DNA from: Gammaproteobacteria bacterium
GTDB lineage: Bacteria > Pseudomonadota > Gammaproteobacteria > Chromatiales > Chromatiaceae
DNA length: 50,224 bases
Reading direction: 5' to 3'
Assembly: GCA_009929855.1 (NCBI GenBank)
Contig: RZZN01000029.1
Coordinates: 1 to 50,224, forward strand
The position numbers were made by a program, and so were the translations under genes. Below, one piece after another: positions 822-8,644 of this stretch. The notes under the pieces were generated by a model. It worked only from the letters and a program-made list of their open reading frames with translations. It did not search any database and was not told where the DNA came from. Each line of letters opens with the position of its first letter. Position 1 is the first letter of the stretch.

Positions 822-2615
822 CTATTCGCTGGAGTCTTGCTCCCGTGAATCATTGATCAGCGCATCGGATCGAGCTAAATCAATAGGTACGGAGACCCGA
901 TCATCCACATCTGGATCGTCTGGCATGAGCTCGGGCGTCGACGTCGGTATCGGCTCGAGCGGCGGCGTCGGTATCGGCTCGGGCCAAGCGATCCTGGCCC
1001 TTGAGACTGGCTTGGAGAAGGCGTCCAATAGGGCCGGATCGCGCGCATAGATGTCATCGCGCAGCCGCAGCCGACCCGACGCATCGGCAGATGCCGTCAG
1101 ATAGACGAGCAATATCGGCAACGGCTCGTCCAAGTCGACATAGCGCGTGCGCCCGCGCTCGACGACCGAGTCGATGGTCGCGCGGTCCCAAGAGCTGCCG
1201 GCGAGGATGCGCTCGGCCAGGTCGAGCGGATCCTGCACCCGCACGCAACCATTGCTCAGCGCCCGCTGCCGGCGTGCGAAGAGACCCTTGCTGGGCGTAT
1301 CGTGCAGATAGACCGCATGATGGTTGGGGAACATGAACTTGACCCGACCAAGCGCGTTGCGCGGGCCTGGCTCTTGGACCAGGCGATAACGACGATGATC
1401 GGTGAGGACGCCGCCGCTGACCCGCTGCCCAGTGCGGCGATCCACCAGTCTGTAGTCGCTGCCGACCCGCGACATCTTTTTCTGCAAGGATGGTGGCACC
1501 GTCCAGGTCGGATTGAAGACCAGATGTTCCATGGTATCGCGGAACATCGGGGTCTGTGCCTCGACGGTACCCACGATCGCTCGCGTCGACCAGAGGATCT
1601 CCTCATCATGCACCAGATGGACGCTGTAATCGGTCACGTCGACGAACAGATAGTCCGCGGGAAGTGCATCGGACAGCCAGCGCATGCGCTCGAGATTGAT
1701 CCGGATGCGATCGATGATCGCGGGATCGAGATGCGCGTCGAGCGCCGCGCGCGTCGCCGGGCCGACGATCCCATCCGCGCTCAGACCCTGGTGGCGCTGA
1801 AAGGCCACCACGGCTGCGCGCAGTGGCTCGTCGAACCGCTCGGGATCGGCGCCGTCCGTCGGATCGGCCACCTCCTCACCCAGGAGCCGCAGGCGCTCGC
1901 GCACCAGTGGGACGTCTGGCCCCCGATCCCCCAGCGCGAGGATGGGGCCACTCGGCAAGGGTGAGCGCTCGGCCTGACGGATGAGATCGCTGTAGCGGCT
2001 CAGGACCACCTTGAGCCGCTCGGCCCAAAATGGCTTGGGAAACCGCCCCGCGAGACCCGCGCCCAGGTCATCCCCATCCAGTGCAGCGGCCATGTCGGCC
2101 AAGAGTGTCTCAGCGGGGACTGGGGCACGGTCGTGCCACTGACGATCGAGCAGGACCGGATCAAGCTTGCCAAAGCGATGATGGTGCACATAACGCAGCA
2201 GTGCATCGCTCAGGATCAGATCGGCAGCGATGCGTTCGGATCGGGGACGCGTCTCCAGCCCACCCTGATCGAGATACTGGCGCAGGCTGGCGATGTGAAA
2301 ATCCTCGGGTACGAACCCCTCCGCGCGACTCGCTAGAGCCAGCTCGTGCAGCGCGCGGATGCGCGACACATCATCCCAGACAAGCTGGTAGGCACGCTCG
2401 GCGTAGAAGGCGTCGAGCAGCCGGCCGGACAGAAGACTGACCCCCTCGATCGATGCCACTGGCGCCTCGCTGAAGGCGGCGAGCGTCGTCTCGAGGAGCC
2501 CATCGGCTGCTGCTGGCGTGGCGATCAGGGTCAGGACGAGCAGACCGGCCGCGCACACACCGGGCCGGTGACGGCTCGAGCGCAACGCCCGCGGGGATGG
2601 CGCAATGCTCAGCAT
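822..2615 (-). CDS. L,D-transpeptidase, LdtD/YcbB type
   Basis: A 597-residue periplasmic enzyme predicted to form 3-3 crosslinks in peptidoglycan. The order is a signal peptide (residues ~1-37, ending TPAAA), an N-terminal scaffold domain, a peptidoglycan-binding domain (LGDRGPDVPLVRERL through FQRHQGLSADGIVGPATRAA), and a YkuD catalytic domain. The catalytic domain has the signature HDTP...F...R..SNGCVRV, in which the cysteine is the nucleophile. The length matches the LdtD/YcbB class. The last ~90 residues are a proline- and acid-rich tail (PTPPLEPIPT) that is unusual and probably unstructured. The ATG overlaps the spoVR stop codon by 7 nt (ATGCTGA), which implies translational coupling to the prkA-yeaH-spoVR operon. 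The family assignment is firm; the physiological link to SpoVR is inference from the overlap. Confidence 0.92.
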   Translation of the reverse strand: MLSIAPSPRALRSSRHRPGVCAAGLLVLTLIATPAAADGLLETTLAAFSEAPVASIEGVSLLSGRLLDAFYAERAYQLVWDDVSRIRALHELALASRAEGFVPEDFHIASLRQYLDQGGLETRPRSERIAADLILSDALLRYVHHHRFGKLDPVLLDRQWHDRAPVPAETLLADMAAALDGDDLGAGLAGRFPKPFWAERLKVVLSRYSDLIRQAERSPLPSGPILALGDRGPDVPLVRERLRLLGEEVADPTDGADPERFDEPLRAAVVAFQRHQGLSADGIVGPATRAALDAHLDPAIIDRIRINLERMRWLSDALPADYLFVDVTDYSVHLVHDEEILWSTRAIVGTVEAQTPMFRDTMEHLVFNPTWTVPPSLQKKMSRVGSDYRLVDRRTGQRVSGGVLTDHRRYRLVQEPGPRNALGRVKFMFPNHHAVYLHDTPSKGLFARRQRALSNGCVRVQDPLDLAERILAGSSWDRATIDSVVERGRTRYVDLDEPLPILLVYLTASADASGRLRLRDDIYARDPALLDAFSKPVSRARIAWPEPIPTPPLEPIPTSTPELMPDDPDVDDRVSVPIDLARSDALINDSREQDSSE

Positions 2616-5266
2616 TCGCCGATCAATTGAACCCGACCCTGATCATCCAAGGTCTCCAGACGCACGTTGAAGCCCCACAGCCGACGGATATGACGGAGCA
2701 TCTCATCGACCGAATCGCCGAGCGGGCGGCGCTGATGCTGAAAGTGACGTAGGGTCATGGATCGATCTCCACGCCGATCGACCTGGTAGACCTGGATGTT
2801 CGGCTCGCGGGTGCCCAGGTTGTATTGCTCTGACAGTGCCTGACGCAGCCGCCGGTATCCCGCCTCGTCATGGATCGCGGTCACCTCGATATGCTCCTCG
2901 AGATCATCGTCACGGATCGCGAACAGACGCAGCTCACGCATCAGACGTGGTGAGAGATACTGAGCGATGAAGCTCTCGTCCTTGAAGTTGCGCATCGCGA
3001 AGTCGAGCACCTTCAACCAATCACCCCCCGCGATCTCGGGGAACCACTCGCGATCCTCTGCCGTCGGCTCCTCGCAGATGCGGCGGATGTCGCGCATCAT
3101 CGCGAATCCGAGCGCATAGGGATTGATGCCGCTGTAGTAGGGTGCGTCGAAGGGGGGCTGGAAGATGACGCTGGTATGTGATTGGAGGAACTCCATCATG
3201 AAGCCATCGGTGACGAGACCCTCGTCATAGAGATGGTTCATCAAGGTGTAGTGCCAGAAACAGTTGTGGTTGACGAAGCAGGAGGCCTTGTAGGCGTGTG
3301 ACTCCTCCACGCTGAAATCGTAGACTGGTCCTTCGTCATGCTCGATGGATTCGATCGTCGTCGTCTCCTGCTCGGGGAGGAGCGACGCCAGGCTGGAGAG
3401 GATCTCGGCGAGTGCGCGACGCTTGCGCGACAGACGAAAGCCGATCTGCTCGGCGAATGGGTTGAGATCCGCGCCCGCGATGACGAGCCGATGGGTCCCG
3501 TCCGCTTGGGGTCGCAATGTGGCGACAATGCCGAGATTCAGCAGGAGGAGCTGCTCGGTGGCCAGCAATTCACGACTCCGGCCAACCAGGATGACCTGAC
3601 GCTCGGCGCTCGAGACATCACCTTCGGTGTCGAAATGACCGCGCAGGAATGCCTGGATCACGGCTTTCGGCGACTCGAGGATGAGCTTGGGCACGCGCTT
3701 GCGCGCCGCGGTCTGCCAGCCGACCGGGAACTCGAACGCCTGCGTGAAGAGTCGGGCCAGCGCGCGGTTGGACAGACTCGAGTTGAAATGATCGCGATCC
3801 GCGCGTCGTGAGACCGCAAGCCCGAAGTTGGCCACGAGTGTCCGCTCGAAGAAGTCGAGCAGCTCGGCATCGCGCGTGACCAGCGTCACACGCTGATCAT
3901 CGATGACGCCGCCCCCGATGATCTGTCCGATCACCTCGGCCAGATCAGCGCCCAAGGTCAGCGGTCGGCGTGGCAGATCCTCGAAGCCGGGCATGGACGC
4001 GGCGGCGCGTGACCCGTCTGCACCCTCATGCCAGCTCGGCGCGCCGCCTTGGGTCGCGCTCGACACCGACAGACCCGATGCGGCGGATCGCCATCCATGT
4101 CGAACAGTGGGCGCGACGGCGAGGGATTCGGCGATCACCACCTCCTCGCTGGCGAACACCCCACGACCGCGATGGATCTCGACCTCGTCGCCCACCGCCA
4201 GCTCACGGAGCTCGACCCACTGGCCACGCACCAGGATGCGATGATCGGCCCCGCCGTGCAGCTCGTAGCCGTGACGCGTGCGGATGCGCACGCGCGGCTT
4301 GGCTGGATGGTGGAACCAGTTGACCACGCGGTTGCCATCCTCGACGTGTCCCGAGAAACGCGACTCGACCAGATCCTGAGCCGACAACATCCCCTGATCA
4401 GTGACGATCAAGGTGTCCCCGGTGACACAGGCCCAACCTTCATTCATCACCTGGGTCTGACGCTGCGGATAGAAATACTGACCCAGCTTGCGCACGATAC
4501 GAATGATCTCACGCTGCCAAGGCTCGAGCAGGGGTGAGTTCTTCTCGATGAAATAGAGTAGATTCTCCTGGGGCTCATCCGGCCAGCGCACATCGTCGAC
4601 GCTCGTCTGCTCCGTCGAGAAGACCGGCAGGGTCCGCCAGAGGTCATTGACCTGCGACTGCAGGTAGGCCTCGCGCTCCTTCTGCCGCCGTTGCTCCTCG
4701 GCCATGCTCAGGGGTGCTGGCCGCTTGTAGCGATCGACGCCATGATTCATGAGTGCATGACAGGAATCGAGCAGCAGCTCGACCTCGGCCTGACCATGAC
4801 GCTCCTCGCATTCGGCGATGTAGCGGCGCGCGAAGACCAGATAATCGATGATGGCGTCGGCGTTGGTCCAGGTCCTGAAGAGATAGTTACCCTTGAAGAA
4901 GCTGTTGTGGCCGTAGCTGGCGTGTGCGATCACCAACGCCTGCATCGGCAGCGTGTTCTCCTCCATGAGATAGGCAATGCAAGGGTCGGAATTGATGACG
5001 ATCTCGTAGGCGAGGCCCATCTGCCCCCGTCGATAAGTCTGCTCGGTCGCGACGAATTGCTTGCCGAACGACCAGTGCTGATAGTTGATCGGCAGGCCCA
5101 CCGATGAATAGGCATCGATCATCTGCTCGGAGCTGATGACCTCGATCTGATTGGCGTAGGTGTCGAGCCCATAGACGTTGTGGGCGAGGTTGGCGATCTC
5201 CCGGTCGAAACGCTCGAGCAAAGGGAAGGACCACTCGGATGACTCTGAGATGACGCGCTTGGTCAT
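2609..5266 (-). CDS. spoVR: SpoVR family protein interrupted in frame by an intein
   Basis: An 885-residue precursor. Residues 1-279 and 669-885 together make a SpoVR/YcgB protein of 496 residues, close to the family's usual size of about 500. Residues 280-668 are an intein. The N-extein contains HWSFGKQF and [19 protein letters not shown]; the C-extein begins [15 protein letters not shown] and contains [19 protein letters not shown]. The insertion splits the conserved motif NEGWA/(C)FWH. SpoVR is needed for normal spore cortex in Bacillus subtilis, and in proteobacteria it is co-encoded with PrkA and YeaH; its biochemical activity is not settled. The ATG at 5266 overlaps the yeaH stop by 4 nt (ATGA). 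An upstream in-frame extension is possible but would run through yeaH and has no SpoVR-like sequence. Without splicing the protein would be disrupted at its best conserved site. Confidence 0.95.
3263..4429 (-). mobile_element. Intein (389 aa) with LAGLIDADG-type endonuclease domain in SpoVR
   Basis: The element starts at Cys280 of the precursor ([10 protein letters not shown], block A) and ends with VNHN, followed by Cys669 as the +1 nucleophile. This gives the standard Cys1, penultimate His, terminal Asn and +1 Cys set of a class 1 intein. Block B is present as GGADHRIL: the His is conserved, while the usual Thr three residues earlier is Gly. Block F is [14 protein letters not shown]. Between the splicing halves sits a dodecapeptide endonuclease. 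Its first motif (residues ~437-456) reads [12 protein letters not shown], with Gly where the catalytic Asp of the usual GDG is expected. The second (residues ~539-550) reads [12 protein letters not shown] and keeps an acidic residue. Splicing therefore looks intact while homing activity may be lost. Codon usage resembles the host gene, which suggests long residence. Confidence 0.93.
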
Positions 5267-6519
5267 GCCGCCTGCCTCTTGAACAGCTCCCGAAACACGG
5301 GAAAGATGTCTTCCGCCCCACTGATCTCCTGCATGGCGAAATGACGATGAGCCGCCCGAACCTCCTGATAGGCGTGCCATAGGCTTTGGTGCTGCCGCGG
5401 CGTGATCTCGACATAGGCGAAATAACGCATGAGCGGCATCAGTCGATCGATGAGGATATCGCGACAGATCACCGAGTCCGAATCCCAATTGTCTCCATCC
5501 GACGCCTGGGCTGCATAGATGTTCCAGACGTTCGGATCATAGCGCGCCCTAAGAAGCTCATCGGCGAGGGTCAGCGCGCTCGAGACCACGGTGCCCCCGG
5601 TCTCGCGCGAATAGAAGAAGTCCTGCTCGTCGACCTCCTGCGCCACCGTGTGGTGTCGGATGAAGACCACATCGATCTTGTCGTAATTGCGTTGAAGGAA
5701 GAGATAGAGCAGGATGAAGAAGCGCTTGGCGAGATTCTTGCGGACTTGATCCATGGAGCCCGAGACATCCATGATGCAGACCATCACGGCCTTGCTGGTC
5801 GGCTCGGGCACCTTGGTGAAGCTCTGATAGCGCAGGTCGAAGGTATCGATGAAGGGCAAGGCGGCGATGCGCGTGCGCAGTCGATCGATCTCCGCGCGCA
5901 GCTCGCCAATGCGCTGATCGCTCTCCTCGACCCCACCCGCGAGCAACGCCTCCAACTCCTCCTCGAGCTCGCGCGCCCGCGCCCGCAGTGGCGCGCCGAT
6001 CGCGGTGCGCCGGGCGATGGCGCCCTTGAGCGAGCGCACCACGTCGATGTTCGCGGGCGAGCCATCGGTCGCATAACCGGCGCGGACCGTCTTGAGCTCG
6101 GTGCTCCCCATCAGCTGGTTGCGCACCAGGTTGGGCAGCTCCAGATCATCGAAGAGCAGATCCATGAATTCGTCGCGCGAGAGCTCGAAGACGAAGTCAT
6201 CCTCGCCGCGCCCGCCCTTGCCGGCACGCCCGCCTCCCGCGCCCTCGGGTCGGCGGATGCGATCACCTGACATGAAATCCTGGTTGCCCGGATGTACCTG
6301 ATCGCGGATGCCGCCCTGGCCATGGTGGAAGACCGGCTCGGAGATGTCCTTCGAGGGGATGCCGACACGCTCGCCCGAATCGATATCCATGATGCTGCGC
6401 TTGTTGACCGCATCCGCGACCGAGCGCTTGAGCTGCTCCTTGTAACGCTTGATGAAGCGCTGTCGATTGACCGCGCTCTTGTTCTTGCCATTCAGACGCC
6501 GGTCAATGAAGTGTGACAT
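5263..6519 (-). CDS. yeaH: YeaH/YhbH family protein (DUF444, UPF0229)
   Basis: A 418-residue cytosolic protein of the UPF0229 family, usually co-encoded with the PrkA kinase. The N-terminus starts [20 protein letters not shown], as is typical of the family. Residues ~70-100 are rich in Gly, Arg and acidic residues. A charged coiled-coil-like stretch follows at about 160-215. The C-terminal half is a von Willebrand A-like fold with a MIDAS-type motif DVSGSMD near residue 250, and then [10 protein letters not shown]. The molecular function is unknown; in Escherichia coli yeaG and yeaH act together during sustained nitrogen starvation. The gene follows prkA after a 202-nt gap with two hairpins and overlaps spoVR by ATGA. 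Family assignment is very secure. Confidence 0.94.
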
Positions 6520-6721: not shown

Positions 6722-8644
6722 TCACTGTGACTTGCGGACCCGCAGATACCACTCAGAGAGCAGCCGCACCTGCTTGGGCGTGTAGCCCTTGGCGGTCATG
6801 CGATCGAGGAACTGATCGTGCTTCTTCTGCTCGTCGACCGACGCCTTCGCGTTGAATGAGATGACAGGCAGCAGATCCTCGGTGTTGGAGAACATCTTCT
6901 TCTCGATGACCAGGCGCAGCTTCTCATAGCTGGTCCATTTGGGGTTGGCGCCGGCATTGTTGGCACGCGCGCGCAGCACGAAGTTGACGATCTCGTTGCG
7001 AAAATCCTTGGGATTGGAGATGCCGGCGGGTTTCTCGATCTTTTCCAGCTCCTCGTTGAGCGCGCCGCGATTCATCATCTCGCCGGTATCGGGATCGCGA
7101 TACTCCTGATCCTGGATCCAATAGTCGGCATAGGTCACATAGCGATCGAAGATGTTCTGACCGTACTCGGCATAGGACTCCAGGTAGGCGGTCTGCAGCT
7201 CCTTGCCGATGAGCTCGGCATAGCGTGGCGCCAGGTACTGCTTGAGGAAGCCCAGATAACGCTCTTGGGTCTCGGGCGGGAGCTGCTCGCGGGTGACCTG
7301 ACGCTCGAGCACATAGAGTAGATGCACCGGGTTGGCGGCGACCTCGCCATGGTCGAAGTTGAAGACCTGCGAGAGGATCTTGAAGGCGAAGCGTGTCGAG
7401 ATCCCCGACATGCCCTCGTCGACCCCGGCATAGTCACGATATTCCTGAACCGATTTGGCCTTGGGATCCGTGTCCTTCAGGTTCTCACCGTTGTAGACCC
7501 GCATCTTGGAGTAGATGCTCGAATTCTCGGGCTCCTTCAAGCGGGTGAGCACCGAGAACTGCGCCATCATCTCGAGCGTACCAGGTGCGCAGGGGGCCGC
7601 GGAAAGCGAGCTGTTGCGCAGCAATTTGTCGTAGATCAGGGTCTCCTCATCGACCCTTAGACAATAGGGCACCTTGACGATGAAGACACGGTCGAGGAAG
7701 GCCTCGTTGTTCTTGTTGTTGCGGAAGCTCTGCCACTCGGATTCGTTGGAGTGGGCCAGGATGATGCCTTGGAAGGGCAGTGCCGAGAGTCCCTCGGTGC
7801 CGTTGTAGTTGCCTTCCTGGGTGGCGGTGAGCAGCGGATGCAGCACCTTGATGGGCGCCTTGAACATCTCCACGAACTCCATCAAGCCCTGATTGGCGCG
7901 GCAGAGTGCACCGGAGTAACTGTAGGCATCGGCGTCGTGCTGGGCGAAGCGCTCGAGCTGGCGGATATCGACCTTGCCGACCAGCGAGGAGATATCCTGA
8001 TTGTTCTCGTCACCCGGCTCGGTCTTGGCGATGGCGATCTGCTCGAGCACCGAGGGATAGAGCTTCACCACCTTGAATCGGGTGATATCGCCGCGGTATT
8101 CCTGCAGACGCTTGACCGCCCAGGGCGACATGATGGTGCGCAGATAACGGGCTGGGATGCCATAGTCCTCCTCGAGGATGGGCCCGTCCTCTTCCGGCGA
8201 GAAGAGACCGAGCGGCGACTCGAAGACGGGCGAGCCATGGATCGCATAGAAGGGCTGCTGCTCCATGAGCTCCTTGAGCTTTTCGGCGAGCGAAGACTTG
8301 CCACCACCGACCGGCCCGAGCAGATAGAGGATCTGCTTCTTCTCCTCGAGACCCTGCGCGGCATGCTTGAGATAGGACACCAGATGCTCGATCGACTCCT
8401 CCATGCCATAGAATTCGGAGAAGGCCGGATAGCGGCGGATGATCTTGTTCTGAAAGACCCGGCTCAAGCGAGAATCATCGCGGGTGTTCACCAGCTCGGG
8501 CTCACCGATCGCCGTCAGCAGCCGCTGGGCAGCGCCGGCGTAGGCGCTCGGATCGCTCTTGCACAGCTGCAGATACTCGTCGAGGCTCAGGACCTCTTCA
8601 CGGGACGCCTCGTAGCGCGCCTGATAGCGTTCGAAGATCGACAT
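6722..8644 (-). CDS. prkA: PrkA/YeaG family serine protein kinase (AAA+)
   Basis: A 640-residue protein of the PrkA family. The N-terminal two thirds are an AAA+ module: Walker A GPVGGGKSS at residues 110-118, then an extended PrkA-specific region (GLFSPEEDGPILEEDYGIP; ALPFQGIILAHSNESEW). The C-terminal domain resembles a kinase catalytic region (EYAEYGQNIFDRYVTYADYWIQD). Bacillus PrkA was described as a serine kinase, and recent literature also argues for an AAA+ protease-like role, so the exact activity is uncertain. The length is as expected. It is the first gene of the prkA-yeaH-spoVR operon. The ribosome site is weak (AGGG about 11 nt upstream). A sigma-54 promoter match lies about 117 nt upstream of the start codon. 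Confidence 0.95.
   Translation of the reverse strand: MSIFERYQARYEASREEVLSLDEYLQLCKSDPSAYAGAAQRLLTAIGEPELVNTRDDSRLSRVFQNKIIRRYPAFSEFYGMEESIEHLVSYLKHAAQGLEEKKQILYLLGPVGGGKSSLAEKLKELMEQQPFYAIHGSPVFESPLGLFSPEEDGPILEEDYGIPARYLRTIMSPWAVKRLQEYRGDITRFKVVKLYPSVLEQIAIAKTEPGDENNQDISSLVGKVDIRQLERFAQHDADAYSYSGALCRANQGLMEFVEMFKAPIKVLHPLLTATQEGNYNGTEGLSALPFQGIILAHSNESEWQSFRNNKNNEAFLDRVFIVKVPYCLRVDEETLIYDKLLRNSSLSAAPCAPGTLEMMAQFSVLTRLKEPENSSIYSKMRVYNGENLKDTDPKAKSVQEYRDYAGVDEGMSGISTRFAFKILSQVFNFDHGEVAANPVHLLYVLERQVTREQLPPETQERYLGFLKQYLAPRYAELIGKELQTAYLESYAEYGQNIFDRYVTYADYWIQDQEYRDPDTGEMMNRGALNEELEKIEKPAGISNPKDFRNEIVNFVLRARANNAGANPKWTSYEKLRLVIEKKMFSNTEDLLPVISFNAKASVDEQKKHDQFLDRMTAKGYTPKQVRLLSEWYLRVRKSQ

Follow-up and report, generated by a model that had tools for sequence, protein, structure and literature searches.

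How a 389-residue insert came to lie within a SpoVR gene, whether it still splices and what it means for its host are the questions raised by this locus. The gene is encoded on the minus strand of the window, the whole stretch of 50,224 nucleotides that was analysed, in a frame that is open throughout from 2609 to 5488. Translation from the ATG at 5266, which overlaps the stop codon of the preceding DUF444 gene (ATGA), gives a precursor of 885 residues that consists of an N-extein of 279 residues (4430..5266), the insert of 389 residues (3263..4429) and a C-extein of 217 residues plus stop codon, the first residue of which is Cys+1 (2609..3262). The whole ORF is matched by the SpoVR models of Pfam (PF04293, E 3e-171) and NCBIfam (NF008737, 880.7 bits); the best stretch of PF04293 falls on ORF 85-363 in the N-extein, and the C-extein is matched by the same model at 2813-3262 and by PF24755 (SpoVR_C). 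Without the insert, the translated SpoVR has 496 residues. A search of the 4.81-Mb genome, an assembly of 414 contigs, with the SpoVR model returned the interrupted gene as the sole match. Upstream and on the same strand lie the DUF444 gene (5263..6519; PF04285, E 1.5e-180), which we take to be of the YeaH type, and a PrkA gene (6722..8644; PF08298 and PF06798), presumably of the YeaG type. Photosynthetic reaction-centre genes are present in the same genome, the owner of which may be a purple sulfur bacterium.

At the level of sequence, the insert is confirmed as a genuine intein of class 1 layout, with Cys1, a DH in block B and HN/C at the C-terminal junction. It matches Intein_splicing (PF14890) with 39.4 bits (cut-off 35.8), LAGLIDADG_3 (PF14528) with 59.6 bits (cut-off 22.5) and intein_Nterm (TIGR01445) with 29 bits (cut-off 24.5); the score of intein_Cterm (TIGR01443) was 14.4 on the whole ORF, just under the cut-off of 15.6, and this model was unlisted for the insert alone. 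Eight homologues are inserted at the same codon of SpoVR. An alignment of the nine sequences shows Cys1 and the terminal HN/C in all of them. The block B histidine motif of inteins is labelled TxxH; all nine inteins read GGADH at this position, a variant in which the histidine is present and a glycine takes the place of the threonine. The intein can be divided into an N-terminal splicing region (residues 1-97, 4139..4429), a remnant of a helix-turn-helix accessory region (residues 98-149, 3983..4138), a LAGLIDADG homing endonuclease domain (residues 150-348, 3386..3982, matched by PF14528) and a C-terminal splicing region ending with HN (residues 349-389, 3263..3385), all on the minus strand. 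Identity to the eight relatives amounts to 76-81% in the N-terminal splicing region, 25-33% in the helix-turn-helix region and 66-78% in the C-terminal splicing region. An AlphaFold2 model of the intein, built from a two-row alignment (window and L014), reached a pLDDT of 34.9.

The relatives were found by two routes. An intein search across 210 genomes of the window's family gave matches in ten genomes; besides the window's own, three of these were full-length and all in SpoVR (G101 and G104 of genus g42, G004 of genus g4), and the remaining six genomes gave weaker, partial matches in other genes. In the same search, the closest match outside SpoVR was the endonuclease region of inteins in apparent MutS genes (L007 and L008 of G005 and G006). 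A scan of named genomes with short exact peptide patterns, which reaches close relatives only, led to Competibacteraceae UBA2792, in whose family (39 genomes, here called the second family) five full-length carriers including UBA2792 are found. In the assemblies of UBA2792 and of a further carrier, G588, the C-extein does not stay in frame. All nine carriers share the arrangement NEGWA/C...HN/CFWH. The eight inteins (G004, G101, G104, UBA2792 and four of its family) are 60-65% identical to that of the window and have the same domain order, splicing region, helix-turn-helix, LAGLIDADG, splicing region, and each of them comprises 406 residues. The reading of the initial annotation, a complete Cys1...His-Asn/Cys+1 intein of 389 residues that lies in frame and splits NEGWA/CFWH, is thus borne out by the intein family models and the same-codon homologues alike. 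Its further statement that the rejoined exteins form a SpoVR of normal length agrees with 73 insert-free SpoVR genes that align across the site. The site is in a conserved motif, as had been stated, but calling it the most conserved one was a little strong: 11% of the SpoVR positions, in windows of ten residues, are as conserved or more so.

Carriers are rare among their relatives. SpoVR was detected in 93 of the 210 genomes of the window's family and in 29 of the 39 genomes of the second family, and four and five of these, respectively, carry the intein. None of the ten further species with SpoVR in the window's genus has an insert; the same holds for two of three species of genus g4 and five of seven of genus g42, the last count including G105, itself broken between two frames. 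No second intein-split SpoVR was found in a class sample (103 of 369 genomes with SpoVR) and a phylum sample (127 of 398), which overlap, both include the window's genome and were judged by match coordinates, so that truncated genes could hide one. Double SpoVR matches, adjacent or overlapping, in G571, G517 and G105 turned out to be frame breaks and not inteins. The 73 insert-free genes were read at the DNA level across the site; they come from 50 of the 89 remaining genomes with SpoVR in the window's family (30 taken by best score and 20 by hand) and from 23 of the 24 non-carriers of the second family, the remaining one (L111) being too short. At the +1 position these genes encode threonine (69), cysteine (3) or serine (1), and all nine carriers have Cys+1 with the junction codons GCC/TGY. 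One of the non-carriers, G009 (L124, a single contig of 5.0 Mb), lacks the intein, reads GCC/TGC at the site and forms the sister of the carrier G004 on the SpoVR tree. Its junction is either the scar of an exact intein loss or a cysteine allele older than the invasion. The scar reading is weakened by two distant SpoVR sequences from IMG/VR (L151 and L158) that also read NEGWAC; together with the three non-carriers they imply that Cys+1 is not exclusively a footprint of the intein.

The SpoVR intein at NEGWA/C looks like a homing element in its behaviour and is distributed patchily on the SpoVR tree. In this tree of 82 rows (built quickly and containing some long branches, that of L014 partly owing to its broken C-extein), carriers of the window's family adjoin non-carriers of their own genera, and the carriers of the second family are mixed among the non-carriers of that family. 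Between the two families the inteins are 74-77% identical (60-63% for the window copy) and the exteins mostly 72-75% (66-69% for L014); within the window's family, G101 and G004 share 75% of their intein as against 84% of their extein residues. In an unrooted tree of the inteins, G004 clusters with the second family (96/94) and the window intein has a long branch. Traces reminiscent of co-conversion are seen around the site in genus g42. Compared with the non-carrier G099 (L125), the carrier G101 (L004) differs in 11 of 60 bases (18%) within ten codons of the site and in 67 of 1449 bases (4.6%) elsewhere (p 1.5e-4), and the carrier G104 (L005) in 13 of 60 (22%) and 51 of 1449 (3.5%), respectively (p 4.6e-7). 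The third-position GC content (GC3) of these two carriers is 64-65% in the intein versus 84-85% in the exteins. No tract of this kind was found in the pairs L006-L124, L006-L123, L075-L096 and L074-L092, and the pair L075-L100 was marginal (p 0.041 at 20 codons). The flank in the window is weakly closer to other carriers at ten codons (p 0.041 for L005, 0.048 for L006 and 0.18 for L004) and shows no local excess of differences to its congeners; these p values stand among 32 flank tests in all. In the window the GC3 of the intein (78.9) is not set apart from that of the exteins (76.4), as in most other carriers. Homing is well supported in one clade, and we infer it for the rest.

The accessory region of the relatives' inteins (approximately residues 98-166 in L004, L006 and L014) resembles a transposase OrfA (HTH_Tnp_1). 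The Pfam model HTH_Tnp_1 is found in four of the five inteins scanned, with 24.6 bits in L014 (cut-off 24.1) and 23.7, just under the cut-off, in L004; the window intein is the one without it. The helix-turn-helix region of each of the eight relatives aligns with an OrfA-like protein of an insertion sequence from the same family with scores of 69-77, which none of 2000 shuffles attained, and the window intein aligns with a score of 37, attained by four of 2000 shuffles. In the window copy this region is 17 residues shorter than in the eight relatives, and the full-length transposase-type helix-turn-helix of the relatives is one of the features in which they differ from it. The endonuclease motifs are another. 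Block C reads GGG in the window (residues 172-174, 3908..3916) and in G104, the intein of which is 97% identical to that of G101, and GDG in the other seven of the nine inteins. Block E reads FDTEG in the window (residues 266-270, 3620..3634) and FDTDG in all eight relatives. The window copy hence lacks the conserved aspartate in both LAGLIDADG motifs. A glutamate in the second motif may be tolerated. For the acidic residues of blocks C and E we assume the role described in PMC8966425.

The rates of substitution follow the same division. Between the window and its eight relatives, dN/dS is 0.08-0.18 in the N-terminal splicing region, 0.35-1.09 in the helix-turn-helix region, 0.21-0.36 in the LAGLIDADG domain and 0.07-0.49 in the 41 codons of the C-terminal splicing region, values that are rough because dS often exceeds 1. 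In five pairs of relatives the LAGLIDADG value is 0.04-0.21. The N-terminal splicing region of the window copy appears to be under constraint, the C-terminal one less clearly so, and the helix-turn-helix region is relaxed. Having lost the acidic residue of block C, the endonuclease of the window copy looks dead, and yet the value of 0.21-0.36 indicates that some constraint remains on its LAGLIDADG domain. A comparable situation is described in PMC8966425 for the VMA-b inteins PhoVMA and TliVMA, in which a degenerate and an intact LAGLIDADG endonuclease occupy one site and the accessory domain of TliVMA is a helix-turn-helix, as in the relatives of the SpoVR intein; these two differ from it in that they are archaeal and reside in another host protein. 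The endonuclease region of the window intein hits two intein chains of V-ATPases, 7qsu_A with E 1.7e-6 and 7qss_A with E 3.4e-6.

The most plausible explanation, which we hold with high confidence, is that the window carries an endonuclease-bearing class 1 intein allele of SpoVR that splices, arrived by homing and has since suffered decay of its endonuclease. The precursor of 885 residues would be translated and then spliced to yield SpoVR of 496 residues and a free intein of 389 residues. Following the general mechanism of class 1 inteins, Cys1, the block B histidine, Asn389 and Cys+1 would drive the N-S acyl shift, transthioesterification, asparagine cyclisation and ligation. For the arrival we assume that the LAGLIDADG endonuclease of a relative would cut an intein-free SpoVR gene near NEGWA/T, probably helped by the transposase-type helix-turn-helix, and that gene conversion would copy the intein with a short flank that includes the Cys+1 codon. 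In the window's lineage the endonuclease would have decayed after arrival and would no longer cut, and the copy would now be inherited vertically. Such a decayed copy would persist since the conserved site can work only if the intein is spliced out or lost exactly.

A different view of this persistence, along lines suggested in the initial annotation, is that the intein has become a regulatory switch, in which redox conditions or stress slow or trigger splicing and thereby gate SpoVR after translation. There is precedent for conditional splicing in the mycobacterial DnaBi1, where a disulfide forms on the catalytic cysteine (PMC6195587); this intein has Cys-based splicing and redox control, and unlike the SpoVR intein it follows the class 3 mechanism and resides in another host. 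Cys384 is the only cysteine of the window intein besides Cys1 and is present in all nine inteins at NEGWA/C, so that Cys1, Cys384 and Cys+1 are possible candidate thiols for a disulfide switch. Constraint on the N-terminal splicing region has outlasted the changes in the endonuclease motifs, and the neighbours are PrkA and DUF444 genes, with a starvation role of yeaG in E. coli described in PMC4664914. However, constraint on splicing is needed merely to make SpoVR, Cys384 is missing from the homologues of L159 and the phage record discussed below, and most relatives manage without an intein, including all ten SpoVR-bearing congeners. An ordinary homing intein would be expected to show just these features: a patchy distribution, a tract resembling co-conversion in one clade and an endonuclease in decay. 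We consider the switch unlikely, and stress gating does not appear to be favoured over selfish persistence.

Still less probable is that splicing has been lost too and that the host manages with a SpoVR that does not work. In favour of this, the Intein_splicing and intein_Nterm scores exceed their cut-offs by a modest margin only, that of intein_Cterm falls just short, the window intein sits on a long branch, and no second SpoVR was found in the genome. Against this, Cys1, the block B histidine, HN and Cys+1 are all in place, the exteins on both sides give strong matches to the SpoVR models, and a dN/dS of 0.08-0.18 in the N-terminal splicing region contrasts with 0.35-1.09 in the adjacent helix-turn-helix region. 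That the insert represents a regular SpoVR domain which does not splice, or an assembly error, for which the 414 contigs of the genome could be cited, we reject as having practically no chance of being right, as eight other assemblies, one of them in two contigs (G104), share the insert at the same codon, which also speaks against mere chance, as the 73 SpoVR genes examined are without it and as the family models name the insert an intein.

The favoured reading, a spliced homing intein with a decayed endonuclease, places SpoVR among the hosts of such elements, and SpoVR is a recurrent one. Searched with the window intein, phage records yielded one relative, LR756504.1, and plasmids none; IMG/VR gave no match to the window intein alone and the L159 contig when the intein alignment (A3) was used. 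Matches to SpoVR occur in six phage records and are nearly complete in three. One of these three, the 636-kb giant phage record LR756504.1 (L160), encodes a SpoVR with a mini-intein of 129 residues at NEG/C, two codons upstream of NEGWA/C; it is homologous to the splicing region of the window intein (37.5% over 88 residues, E 8e-23, aligned with window residues 1-85) and, unlike the latter, without endonuclease. The match lengths of the other two nearly complete phage SpoVRs leave no room for an insert. In LR756504.1 a DUF444 and the SpoVR gene (734-2053 and 3944-5854) are separated by two methyltransferase-like genes.

Among the 27 SpoVR loci of IMG/VR, six carry inserts, which represent three distinct genes: L152-155 with 316 residues at SHA/C...GN/CQGHS (L152 1131-2078), L158 with 295 residues at MEDN/C...GN/SMTMQ (L158 1119-2003), and L159 with a first insert of 310 residues at FGHS/C...GN/SFF (L159 2334-3263) and a second one of 407 residues at NEG/C...HN/CATYT (contig 3300044842_000356). 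The second insert of L159 is homologous to the window intein (32% over 418 columns, E 2e-51) and, like the phage mini-intein, shares its SpoVR motif, but both are located at NEG/C; a plasmid search with it found one Streptomyces plasmid endonuclease (29%). The inserts of L152-155 and L158 and the first insert of L159 are mutually homologous (24-33%), and the last has no detectable homology to the window intein. These three had no match to the NCBIfam and Pfam intein models, and we call them probable inteins because of their terminal motifs. The inserts of L152 and L158 match a phage PhoH-like family, that of L152 also a ribonucleotide reductase family; we read the matching segments as inteins in those proteins. 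L159 has the gene order PrkA-DUF444-SpoVR, and its contig may be cellular rather than viral. Taken together, SpoVR appears to have five insertion points and to host at least two intein lineages. Four of the five points fall within the 20% most conserved SpoVR positions and the EEN site does not (48%), as judged from an 18-row alignment in which the row of L152 starts about 26 residues inside its insert, a feature that also touches the conservation entropies.

An intein in SpoVR of Chloroflexus aurantiacus, which has the host protein family in common with the one described here, is listed in InBase. In an open-access library we found no paper on inteins in SpoVR. According to PMC5874633, proteins of replication, recombination and repair host 62% of bacterial inteins, and the insertions are often at functional sites; by these figures SpoVR is off the main host list and the site in a conserved motif is typical. 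The earlier description of SpoVR as an unusual host is therefore correct in that the protein lies outside replication and nucleotide metabolism, but less so in view of its recurrence as a host: nine genomes have the intein at NEGWA/C, and further cases are found in the giant phage record and in three distinct IMG/VR genes. The window's genome (G000) contains at least four other inteins, on contigs C267, C319, C404 and C185 (L163-L166). Read by eye, their hosts look like GyrA, DnaB, DnaE and GyrB, and those in GyrA, DnaB and DnaE look like mini-inteins; the genome-wide search missed the SpoVR intein of the window, so that four is a lower bound.

A far-reaching interpretation would make SpoVR a general intein target across bacteria and giant phages, invaded at no fewer than five points in the EEN, HAxxGHN and NEGWATFWH motifs by two lineages without detectable similarity, with phage SpoVR as the vehicle and with redox-dependent splicing through Cys1 and Cys384 at NEGWA turning an inherited parasite into a switch of a starvation operon; in this combined form we regard it as improbable. 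With the series of SpoVR inteins, a single gene offers a test case for homing, decay and loss. The SpoVR sequence found no relative in the PDB at E values up to 1, and a predicted SpoVR fold (L133, based on the 18-row alignment, pLDDT 75.2) gave no useful match there by Foldseek (best E 2.5). As SpoVR has no PDB relative by sequence or fold, the insertion points in its conserved motifs may provide a hint at the location of its active site.
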